64,000 nt of DNA from an uncultured Bacillota bacterium (GTDB taxonomy: Bacteria > Bacillota > Clostridia > Oscillospirales > Oscillospiraceae). Under the pieces are notes generated by a model. That model was not told the origin of the DNA. It was given only the letters and a program-made list of their open reading frames with translations, and ran no database searches. The position numbers and the translations under genes are program-made. How positions within the stretch are numbered: the first letter of the stretch is position 1; the number at the start of each line of letters is the position of its first letter. The stretch spans positions 1 through 64,000 of the forward strand of contig CANSDP010000001.1 of assembly GCA_947645675.1 (NCBI GenBank). The letters are read 5' to 3'. Positions 6,074-51,114 of this stretch are shown here, in pieces.

Positions 6074-7326
6074 ACCAGCAGAAAACCTGTCCCTACTGTG
6101 GAGCCCAGCTTCCGGATGCGGCCTGCTTCTGCCCCCACTGTGCACAGGATATCAGCGAGCGCAAGAAGATATGCCCCCCTCGGCGTATGCCGAGGAGGGC
6201 GCTATATAATGCCCTGATAGTCTTTTTTGTCCTGGCTGTAGCCCTGGCGGCCTGGAGCTATATCAGACCCAAGGTTTACGACAACGGCACTGCCGAGGTG
6301 ATCTATACCGACAGCGACGGCTCCTACCAGCTGCTGCTCAACCACTTCGGGGACCGCTTCCAGCCCATGACCGACTACACCGAGGAGGTGGAGGAGGGGA
6401 CCACCTCAAACAAGCCCTCCCGGCTGTTCATTAACCATGTGGAAACCGGCGTAAACGCCAAGGAGGCCTTTCTCCGCAAGGTGGAGGCCATCACCGTGGA
6501 GCTTCTCCAGGGCGGCGACAGCCCGGAGCCCTGGCAGTACACCCAGCCCCAGGCCTCGGACTACGACCTGGAGGCCGCCGCCCGAAGCATTTTGACCTAC
6601 ACCGACCGCAGCGGCGACATGGAGCTGCGCTGGAATATCCGCATGCAAAACGGCGACACCATCCGCCTGTACCAGCGGATGGCGTTGGGGGTGGTTCCCA
6701 CCCGGCACTTCTACCCGGAGGACGTACCCATGGACACCATGGAGGACCTCCAGGCCCTGGTGGACGAAATCAACGGGACCATCACCTCCGATGTGATTGT
6801 CTACATCCATCTGCCCGCCGTCACCTATGAGGGGAGCTTGGTGCTGGAGGAGCGGTCCATGAACCTTATCGGCAGCGAGGGCCCGGACGGGGCACGCACC
6901 ACCTTCACCGGCACCCTTCAGGCCACCGCCCAGAATGGCTACATCTGCCAATTTCAAAACCTGTGCTTCACGGGAGACGGCGAGGGGGTGGGGGTGTCCG
7001 CCTCCGCCCAGATCAACTTCTCTGACTGCCAGTTTGCCGGGTGGCGCACCGGCGTGCTGTGCTATGGCGATTCCTGGGTGAACATCAAAGACAGCGTCTT
7101 TGAGGACAACGCCGTAGGCTTCCACTTCAACTCCACCAGCGACAACCGAAACGACCACATGTACAGCGGCAACCTGTTCCGGCGCAACGACACGGCTGTC
7201 CTGCTGGAGAGCGTCCCCGGCGACCAGGCATTGTACTTCGAGGGCACCCGCTTCTCCCGCAACGGCGCGGACATCGACAACCGCTGCGGACATGAGGTGA
7301 GCATCGCCGCCGCTATCTTTGAGTAG
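6070..7326 (+). CDS. Zinc-ribbon / single TM / parallel beta-helix-like protein, paralogue 1
   Basis: CPYCGAQLPDAACFCPHCAQ zinc ribbon, hydrophobic segment ALYNALIVFFVLAVALAAW, right-handed beta-helix-like C-terminus; ATGA overlap with kinase stop. Confidence 0.75.
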   Translation: MNQQKTCPYCGAQLPDAACFCPHCAQDISERKKICPPRRMPRRALYNALIVFFVLAVALAAWSYIRPKVYDNGTAEVIYTDSDGSYQLLLNHFGDRFQPMTDYTEEVEEGTTSNKPSRLFINHVETGVNAKEAFLRKVEAITVELLQGGDSPEPWQYTQPQASDYDLEAAARSILTYTDRSGDMELRWNIRMQNGDTIRLYQRMALGVVPTRHFYPEDVPMDTMEDLQALVDEINGTITSDVIVYIHLPAVTYEGSLVLEERSMNLIGSEGPDGARTTFTGTLQATAQNGYICQFQNLCFTGDGEGVGVSASAQINFSDCQFAGWRTGVLCYGDSWVNIKDSVFEDNAVGFHFNSTSDNRNDHMYSGNLFRRNDTAVLLESVPGDQALYFEGTRFSRNGADIDNRCGHEVSIAAAIFE

Positions 7327-40616: not shown

Positions 40617-42041
40617 CTATTCCTTCCCCGACCAGCAGTAGGTACACACCTTGTCCTTGTCGATACCGATGGCCTCCAGCAGGCCGTCCAGGGACTGGTA
40701 ACCCAGGGAGTCGAAGCCGAACTTTTCACAAATGGCCTTCAGCATGCACTGGCCACGTTGGGTGGAGGCGTCGGCGTACTCATCCACATGCTTCTGGCCC
40801 GCGGCCCCCTCCAGGTCCTGAATGGTTCGGCGGGCGAGGAGGTCCATGTCGGAGTTTCCCCGGGAGAAGTTCAGATACTTGCAGCTGTACATGATAGGGG
40901 GACAGGCGGAGCGCATATGGACCTCCTGGGCCCCCGACTCATAGAGGAACTCCACCGTCTCCCGCAGCTGAGTGCCCCGGACGATGGAGTCGTCCACAAA
41001 GAGCAGACGCTGGTTTTGGATCAGCTCGGGGACGGGGATCTGCTTCATCTTGGCCACCTGACTGCGGACGGCCTGGTTGTCGGGCATAAAGGACCGGGGC
41101 CAGGTGGGAGTGTATTTTACAAAGGGGCGGGCGAAGTGGGCCTGGCTGGCGTTGGCGTAGCCGATGGCGTGGGGGATGCCCGAGTCGGGCACACCGGCCA
41201 CGTAGTCCACCTGGGGCAGCGTGCCCCGCTCCTGCTCGTCCCGGGCCATAATGGCCCCGTTGCGGTAGCGCATGAGCTCCACATTGATGCCCTCATAATT
41301 GGAGTTTGGATAGCCGTAATAGCTCCAGAGGAAGGCGCAGATTTTCATCTCCTGGCCGGGGGGGGAGATGGTCTCAAAGCCTTGGGCGGTGATGCGGACA
41401 ATCTCCCGAGGCCCCAGCTCATAGGCGTCCTCATAGCCCAGCTTGTGATAGGCGAAGGACTCGAAGGAGACGCAGTGTCCCTCCTCGCCCCTGCCGATGA
41501 GGACGGGCAGGCGTCCCACCCGGTCCCGGGCGGCGACGATCTCCCCGCTGGCGGTGAGGATGAGCAGGGTAAGAGAGCCCGCTACCGCCTCCTGGGCGTG
41601 GAGGATGCCGTCAACCAGATTGTCCTTCTGGTTGATGAGGGCGGCGGCCAGCTCGGTGGAGTTGACCTTGCCCGAGCTCATAGCCATAAACTGGTGGCCG
41701 TGGTCGGAGAAATATTGGTCCACCAGCTCCTCAGCATTGTTGATGATGCCCACAGTGGTAATGGCGTACAGTCCCAGGTGGGACCGCACCAGCAGAGGCT
41801 GAGGGTCGGTGTCGCTGATGCAGCCGATGCCGGAGCAGCCGTGGAATTTGGATAGGTCCTTCTCGAACTTGGTCCGGAAGGGCGTGTTTTCGATGGAGTG
41901 AATCTGCCGCTGGAACCCGTCCTTGGCGTCATGGAGGATCATGCCGCCCCGGCGGGTGCCCAGATGGGAGTGGTAGTCCACCCCGAAAAAGATATCAAGT
42001 GAGACGTCCCGCGTAGAGACGGCGCCAAAAAAACCACCCAT
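40617..42041 (-). CDS. purF: Amidophosphoribosyltransferase-like protein
   Basis: N-terminal glutamine amidotransferase class II-like region; VDYVAGVPDSGIPHAIGYA, RLLFVDDSIVRGTQLRETVEFLYESGAQEVHMR PRPP motif. Confidence 0.93.
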   Translation of the reverse strand: MGGFFGAVSTRDVSLDIFFGVDYHSHLGTRRGGMILHDAKDGFQRQIHSIENTPFRTKFEKDLSKFHGCSGIGCISDTDPQPLLVRSHLGLYAITTVGIINNAEELVDQYFSDHGHQFMAMSSGKVNSTELAAALINQKDNLVDGILHAQEAVAGSLTLLILTASGEIVAARDRVGRLPVLIGRGEEGHCVSFESFAYHKLGYEDAYELGPREIVRITAQGFETISPPGQEMKICAFLWSYYGYPNSNYEGINVELMRYRNGAIMARDEQERGTLPQVDYVAGVPDSGIPHAIGYANASQAHFARPFVKYTPTWPRSFMPDNQAVRSQVAKMKQIPVPELIQNQRLLFVDDSIVRGTQLRETVEFLYESGAQEVHMRSACPPIMYSCKYLNFSRGNSDMDLLARRTIQDLEGAAGQKHVDEYADASTQRGQCMLKAICEKFGFDSLGYQSLDGLLEAIGIDKDKVCTYCWSGKE

Positions 42042-42052
42042 ATGCTCCTCCC

Positions 42053-42547
42053 TCAGCCCTTCAGCTCCGCCTGGAGCTTGGCCTCCTTGCCGGCAATTTG
42101 CTGCGCCATTTTCTCCCGGGCCTCGTCCAGCCGGGCGGCGAGGGCGTCGTCGGAGACGGCCAGGATCTGAGCGGCCAGCACGGCGGCGTTTTTGGCTCCG
42201 TTGATGGCGACGGTGGCCACGGGGATGCCGCTGGGCATTTGGACGGTGGCCAGCAGGGCGTCCAGACCGTCCATAGCGCCCCCCTTCATGGGGATGCCGA
42301 TAACGGGCAGAGTGGAATTGCCGGCGAAGGCCCCAGCCAGATGGGCGGCCATACCGGCGGCGCAGATCAGCACGCCGAAGCCGTTGGCCCGAGCGTTTTT
42401 GGCGAACTCCGCGGCGGCGGCGGGGGTGCGGTGGGCGCTGAGAATGTGGGCCTCGTAGGGGATGCCGAACTCGTCCAGCTGGGCGCAGGCCCCCTTGACC
42501 ACCGGCCAGTCGCTGTCTGAACCCATGATAACGGCTACTTTTTTCAT
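42053..42547 (-). CDS. purE: 5-(carboxyamino)imidazole ribonucleotide mutase
   Basis: VAVIMGSDSDWPVVKGACAQLDEFGIPYEAHILSAHRTP. Confidence 0.97.
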   Translation of the reverse strand: MKKVAVIMGSDSDWPVVKGACAQLDEFGIPYEAHILSAHRTPAAAAEFAKNARANGFGVLICAAGMAAHLAGAFAGNSTLPVIGIPMKGGAMDGLDALLATVQMPSGIPVATVAINGAKNAAVLAAQILAVSDDALAARLDEAREKMAQQIAGKEAKLQAELKG

Positions 42548-42568: not shown

Positions 42569-42602
42569 TAAAAACGCAGGCTATCTGCGGGTACAGATAG
42601 CC
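42569..42602 (-). terminator. Intrinsic terminator/attenuator in purE leader
   Basis: Minus strand GGCTATCTG-tacccg-CAGATAGCC-TGCGTTTTTA, before purE. Confidence 0.75.
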
Positions 42603-42611
42603 TGTAGGATA

Positions 42612-42674
42612 TTATGGGGCGATTTTGAGCGGATTGAGGCCATAGGACCGCCGGGATCGGAAAAAGCGGAACAT
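42612..42674 (-). CDS. Candidate 20-aa leader peptide of pur operon
   Basis: MFRFFRSRRSYGLNPLKIAP*, preceded by GAGGAGGG; stop is 9 nt before terminator stem. Confidence 0.6.
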   Translation of the reverse strand: MFRFFRSRRSYGLNPLKIAP

Positions 42675-42806
42675 AATGGACCCTCCTCTCAATGTGTGCT
42701 CGAGATGTCATTTTATAGGAAAATGCTCGGTTTTGCAAGAGGAAGCGGCAAATTCGTAAATTTGTACAAGAATTTCGGGGGAGGGGACAAAAAACTGGCG
42801 GAGGGG

Positions 42807-50889: not shown

Positions 50890-51075
50890 CGGCAAGTGAA
50901 GTTCCTGGAAAAATGACGAAAGTCTGCCGAAGGAGTAAAACTCTCAGGCGCTTGTCAGCAAGCGAGGACCGGGAATGGATGTGGCTCTGGAGAAGCCCGG
51001 AAACGGGTACCGAAGGTGCAAGGCGGCGCGGAGACGCGCGGCTGAATCTCTCAGGTAAAAGGACGGAGTGGAACG
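50890..51075 (+). promoter_or_regulatory. Tandem glycine riboswitch
   Basis: Two aptamer-like units: TGCCGAAGGAGTAAAACTCTCAGG... and GGAGAAGCCCGG...TACCGAAGGTGCAAGGCG...GAATCTCTCAGGTAAAAGGACGGAG, upstream of AGCS gene. Confidence 0.9.
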
Positions 51076-51114
51076 TGCGGACTGTGTGTCCGCCATTTTC
51101 GCGTTCTCTTTTTC

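Follow-up and report, generated by a model that had tools for sequence, protein, structure and literature searches.

The pur genes of Bacillus are controlled by the guanine riboswitch and by PurR acting at the PurBox. Control through a translated leader is known from other operons. In pyrBI of Escherichia coli, which carries a leader open reading frame (ORF, pyrL), RNA polymerase (RNAP) slows in a manner sensitive to nucleoside triphosphates (NTPs), a trailing ribosome prevents formation of the terminator, and scarce UTP raises expression (PMC10135430). At Bacillus subtilis tlrB (yxjB), a pause gives time for translation of the leader before a hairpin masks the Shine-Dalgarno (SD) sequence, with an antibiotic as the signal (PMC6851288), and pauses within the hisL and leuL leader ORFs carry G-10Y-1G+1 (PMC9291695). 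Here, we describe the leader of purE, the first gene of a pur operon, in a stretch of DNA from an uncultured member of the Oscillospiraceae, an Oscillospirales family. Little regulation is known in this order, and we found neither a leader-ORF attenuator of purine genes nor a purE leader peptide in the openly accessible literature that we searched. Coordinates are those of the window, that is, the whole stretch of 64,000 nucleotides (nt) that was analyzed, and both the leader and the pur genes lie on its minus strand.

A leader ORF and terminator upstream of purE

Between a sigma-A-like promoter and purE, we observed a short ORF with a strong SD core (GAGGAGGG, 42688-42681), a start codon at 42674-42672 and a TAA stop codon at 42614-42612, followed by an intrinsic terminator. 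The stop is separated by 9 nt from GGCTATCTG and by 7 nt from the full 12-bp stem, CAGGCTATCTGTACCCGCAGATAGCCTG. The promoter ends at 42710, leaving ~35 nt to the leader ATG, and the purE ATG lies downstream of the terminator at 42547. The leader stretch folded with a predicted energy of -48.4 kcal/mol, more stable than its dinucleotide shuffles (z = -2.8).

We compared the regions upstream of purE in genomes of the same genus, family and order, many of them metagenome-assembled. An SD sequence, a short ORF and a terminator stood between the promoter and purE in about 47 of the 50 same-genus genomes examined. Related leaders were also present upstream of purE in other genera and in other Oscillospirales families, with endings such as GISASKFRQ, GLFAPKITL, GISAYKIRF, GIFALKNKL, GIFAHK and GVFAC. 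This recurrence upstream of purE across genomes indicates that the leader layout is more than a product of chance. The initial annotation had proposed a leader ORF abutting a terminator upstream of purE, which the sequence and its recurrence in relatives confirm, and a stop codon placed so that a ribosome would overlap the foot of the stem, which agrees with the gap of 2-10 nt between stop and stem in most homologues (median 7 nt). We consider it very probable that the purE leader belongs to the transcription attenuator class.

No Rfam model reached its gathering threshold in the leader region, and none of relevance matched even at an E-value of 10, which upholds the earlier proposal that the leader is distinct from a guanine riboswitch. 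At the same purE position, many other families of the order carry a ZMP/ZTP riboswitch with a terminator; the ZTP aptamer scored above the gathering threshold in 17 of 20 loci picked for that test, and its 3' core was found by pattern in 49 purE loci. The leader ORF and the ZTP riboswitch were never found together at purE in the loci examined. Since ZTP riboswitches are retained elsewhere in the genome by about half of the window's genus, often within the same cluster and 4-5 kb downstream of purE (e.g., in genomes G012, G024 and G001), the leader ORF is unlikely to be a mere second ZTP sensor. No ZTP riboswitch was found in the window's own genome, which is 82% complete. In Oscillibacter-type genomes, the leader and terminator were absent, and purE directly followed a gene whose translation reads as a GntR/UTRA-type regulator (2232-2966 in locus L048; a similar gene precedes purE in L040, L043, L052, L058, L061 and L105).

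The conserved motif inside the leader ORF

The sole strongly conserved block among the leaders is an 18-nt motif, GGCCYCAATCYGYCCAAA, which reads G-x-x-x-x-K in frame and starts a median of 37 nt before the terminator stem (interquartile range, 34-38 nt). In one further genome of the window's genus (locus L029, on G024:C49), the motif at 6734 and purE at 7115 lie ~360-380 nt apart, far more than in relatives, and the extra length is likely an insertion. A pattern search of the window's own genome gave one hit for the motif and one for the terminator, each at the purE leader, and we found no convincing paralogous copy of the leader element elsewhere in that genome.

The wobble bases of the motif were as conserved as its other bases. 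With expected codon usage taken from neighboring genes and from the purE genes of relatives, AAT was used in 24 of 26 cases (16-23% expected), AAA in 32 of 33 (18-44% expected), CCG in all nine (11-13% expected) and GCG in 9 of 11 (12-17% expected). T was present at motif nt 8 in 37 of 39 leaders, and G or A at nt 11 in 39 of 39. Coding alone leaves this bias against codon usage unexplained, so that the motif acts, in part at least, at the level of RNA or DNA.

This constraint bears on the possibility that the peptide itself is the sensor. The initial annotation had looked for ribosome arrest in an Arg/Phe-rich start and a Pro-rich end, neither of which held in the homologues: residues at the N-terminus vary freely, and conservation does not extend to the terminal Pro (leader ends include KIPL, KIVR, SKIH, SKFRQ and KIRF). 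Arrest could alternatively reside in the motif, with G-[IPVL]-x-[AP]-x-K near the peptide's end stalling the ribosome on a purine-related metabolite and thereby blocking the terminator. The Gly (40 of 40) and Lys (33 of 40) residues are indeed conserved in frame across genera, and the positions of stop and motif would fit occlusion of the stem. Other families carry GI-x-A variants (GIFAHK, GVFAC, GIRAFG and GISASK), loosely similar to the SecM motif GIRAGP. However, the wobble bases of codons +1 to +4 are fixed, yet the residues that they encode vary chemically (P/L/I/V; N/F/S; L/A/P; S/P/L), and a minority of leaders (L014, L084, L089, L207 and L247) read the same motif nucleotides in another frame. 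The initial annotation would have been refuted by a peptide no better conserved than its nucleotides; unexpectedly, it was the wobble nucleotides whose conservation went beyond that of the peptide. The wobble constraint together with the variable residues weakened a strong arrest-peptide reading, and we consider such a sensor unlikely. A BLOSUM/synonymous frame test scored frame 0 of the motif barely better than frame 1, a difference that says little by itself, and the data allow a mixture of peptide and nucleotide signal.

Phe (18%), Arg (12%) and Cys (10%) are frequent among the residues that precede the motif, as might suit attenuation by amino acid starvation of the trp/his type. We regard this explanation as barely credible: no run of control codons stood at a fixed place in the leaders, Phe, Arg and Cys have no link to purines, and a search of 48 leaders for conserved antiterminator pairing between the ORF region and the 5' terminator arm gave none, the duplex energies being no lower than those of shuffled sequences (mean z = +0.08). 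In four members of the antiterminator test set (L017, L021, L037 and L053), the stop codon was displaced and the motif still lay 31-37 nt from the stem. The stop fell within or past the terminator in these four leaders and in L028 and L113, where a ribosome would traverse the stem; displaced-stop leaders could be constitutive readthrough variants.

The fixed motif bases G0, G1, T8, Y10 and G11 match the spacing of the consensus RNAP pause. We scored a six-position consensus, GG-N6-T-G-Y-G, which is known mainly from E. coli. Positions G-11, T-3 and G-2 derive from NET-seq papers. The G-10Y-1G+1 part belongs to the consensus pause of RNAP (PMC9291695, PMC12288461). In the window, these positions correspond to G-11 at 42641, G-10 at 42640, T-3 at 42633, Y-1 at 42631 and G+1 at 42630, so that the predicted RNA 3' end at the pause is 42631. 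Full matches were present in 16 of 65 non-redundant leaders, compared with 2.3 expected from dinucleotide shuffles, and matches at five or more positions in 53 of 65, compared with 27.1 expected. The matches were concentrated 32-38 nt upstream of the stem. Alternative gaps gave at most nine full matches (for an adjacent gap) and permuted letters at most three, and ZTP-type control leaders (n = 37) showed no pause excess (1 full match vs. 1.5 expected; 18 vs. 18.2 at five or more positions). The +1 base was G in 35 of 39 leaders and A in the other four. At the level of sequence, the leaders conserve a match to the pause consensus in which the +1 base is a purine.

The motif is also complementary to the SD and spacer of its own leader ORF, with pairings such as GGGGCCGU/ACGGCCCC (L019), GCAGA/UCUGC (L017), GCGGA/UCCGU (L013) and GAUAGA/UCUGUC (L129); in the window, the SD GAGAGGAGGG contributes to the 5' strand of the predicted helix. 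Since MAFFT gave no reliable alignment of the 5' strand, a swap-permutation test replaced covariation counting. Pairs of a motif with its own ribosome binding site (RBS) were 2.3 kcal/mol better than pairs swapped within the genus (standard deviation of the null, 0.45; P < 1/5000), and the N-terminal coding stretch, used as a control, gave no own-pair effect.

This within-genus support for the helix, the constraint at the nucleotide level and the presence of a riboswitch at the same place in other families would all be expected of an RNA element whose RBS-motif helix binds a ligand or protein, leader translation being merely its output. Yet the helix has the shape of plain RBS masking, and its internal loop shows variation. 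Ruminococcus-type leaders lack the helix, and the permissive Rfam search returned nothing relevant. We consider such an element quite unlikely.

Upstream of the promoter, a conserved TTGTACAAATTTACGAA-like block, present in a single copy in the window's own genome, keeps a spacing of 54-55 bp to the -10 element in nearly all leader-bearing loci with a scored -10. It is a candidate operator of the pur operon, activator site or upstream promoter element. If regulation were carried by this block, leaky termination downstream of the short ORF might simply fix the readthrough ratio and sense nothing, and the short U-tract (5 T after CG) is consistent with such constitutive damping. The motif at a fixed distance, the wobble constraint and the RBS complementarity would all be left unexplained, however, and we judge damping of this kind very unlikely.

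A proposed purine-dependent attenuator

We propose that four parts work together: the leader ORF, an RNAP pause element inside it, an RBS-masking helix and a terminator after the stop. RNAP would pause after nt 42631, where the next nucleotide to be added is a purine (G here). During the pause, the motif would still be held inside RNAP, in the hybrid, leaving the leader RBS free for a ribosome to load and advance a few codons. Upon escape, the emerging motif would pair with the RBS and close the loading window. A ribosome already loaded would trail RNAP and, as the polymerase passes the terminator, occupy the stop codon 7 nt ahead of the stem; by blocking the foot of the hairpin, it would allow transcription of purE. 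Had no ribosome loaded, the RBS would be masked and the terminator would form. Pause escape would use GTP (ATP in A+T-rich clades), and scarce purine nucleotides would thus lengthen the window and increase pur expression.

The ORF, the terminator, their conserved layout, the constraint on nucleotides, the match to the pause consensus and, within the genus, the RBS complementarity can be read from the sequences. That RNAP pauses and is coupled to a ribosome, and what the signal is and which way it acts, are inferences held with differing confidence. The chances that a pause and a ribosome act together in this way appear to be even. That a purine NTP is the signal is a more tentative suggestion, a guess that rests on the use of a purine nucleotide at escape and on purines being the product of the operon's pathway. 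It is possible, if doubtful, that the whole constitutes a widespread, undescribed class of attenuator in gut Oscillospirales, in which a purine-dependent pause in a self-masking leader ORF meters the entry of ribosomes and which replaces the ZTP riboswitch at purE. With similar reservation, polymerase may be said to measure GTP/ATP and the ribosome to report to the terminator, as in a purine counterpart of pyrBI.

Several observations weigh against this proposal. The RBS helix could not be detected in the Ruminococcus-type leaders L087 and L109. The -2 base is C instead of G in about half of the leaders of the window's genus, and the downstream CCAAA is conserved yet lies outside the core pause consensus. 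The motif occupies one frame in 38 of 51 leaders, and a pure nucleotide signal needs no fixed frame, save to hold the stop codon in place. The leader homologues are related by descent and are not phylogenetically independent. It is also possible that an unrelated conserved motif matches the E. coli-type pause consensus by chance (~2% by our own estimate).

If the proposal is true, a Gram-positive gut lineage uses transcription-translation coupling as a means of control, and a pause element can be dual-coded with a leader ORF and its RBS mask. The order would also offer a natural comparison of a riboswitch with a leader-ORF attenuator at the same gene.

Coordinates of the features of the purE leader region in the window
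Feature	Position	Strand	Basis or remark
Conserved block TTGTACAAATTTACGAA (TTGTACAAGCCTACGAA-like)	42753..42769	-	54 bp upstream of -10
Sigma-A-like promoter, TTGCAA-17-TAAAAT	42710..42738	-	Sequence; CTCTTGCAA...TATAAAATG conserved in relatives
5' strand of predicted long-range helix, TTGAGAGGAGGGTCCAT	42676..42692	-	Duplex and fold; own-pair permutation
Leader SD, GAGAGGAGGG	42681..42690	-	Sequence; SD present in relatives
Leader ORF, MFRFFRSRRSYGLNPLKIAP, 20 codons and stop	42612..42674	-	Sequence and recurrence in relatives
3' strand of predicted RBS-masking helix, ATGGCCTCAATCCGCTCAA	42625..42643	-	Duplex; own-pair permutation
Conserved motif GGCCTCAATCCGCTCAAA, codons G-L-N-P-L-K	42624..42641	-	Conservation in relatives
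Pause-consensus 12-mer, GGCCTCAATCCG	42630..42641	-	5/6 consensus positions match
Intrinsic terminator stem-loop, 12 bp, about -19 kcal/mol	42577..42604	-	
Terminator U-tract, TTTTT, preceded by CG	42570..42574	-	Sequence
purE (N5-CAIR mutase), first pur operon gene	42053..42547	-	TIGR01162, 192 bits

Neighboring genes and relation to known systems

A profile search placed purF-like, purM, purN and purO-like (IMP cyclohydrolase) genes after purE, and AICAR-transformylase-like and purD-like ORFs were recognized further downstream from a reading of the ORF-list translations. The purF-like gene (40617-42041, minus strand) scored 167 bits against the 350-bit PurF cut-off, and for this reason we take its predicted product to be a divergent amidophosphoribosyltransferase. 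Elsewhere in the window, a glycine riboswitch aptamer (RF00504, 56.6 bits) lies on the plus strand at 50977-51076. Within the leader ORFs, the coding stretch between the start codon and the motif is strikingly purine-poor, purines making up about one third of it.

Among described systems, pyrBI resembles the purE leader in having a leader ORF and a terminator before a nucleotide-synthesis operon, and the NTP-sensitive slowing and trailing ribosome known there are what we propose here from sequence. In pyrBI, the nucleotide is UTP, the leader is U-rich and the stop codon lies beyond the terminator, whereas the purE leader has a single predicted consensus pause, followed by a purine at +1, in a purine-poor ORF, a stop before the terminator, predicted RBS masking and purine genes downstream. 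With tlrB, it would share a short leader peptide, a pause for ribosome loading, SD masking and a ribosome at the stop blocking the terminator; unlike in tlrB, the putative pause lies within the ORF, and it is the leader's own SD that would be masked. The hisL and leuL leaders carry a G-10Y-1G+1 pause within the leader ORF, as predicted for purE, and it synchronizes RNAP and ribosome there, but the antiterminator hairpins and control-codon runs of hisL, leuL and trpL were not found here. In contrast to guanine-riboswitch control in Bacillus, the leader region gave no purine riboswitch match. The ZMP/ZTP riboswitch (RF01750) of other Oscillospirales families occupies the same place, serves the same purE gene and has the same terminator output, with an aptamer where the purE leader described here has an ORF.
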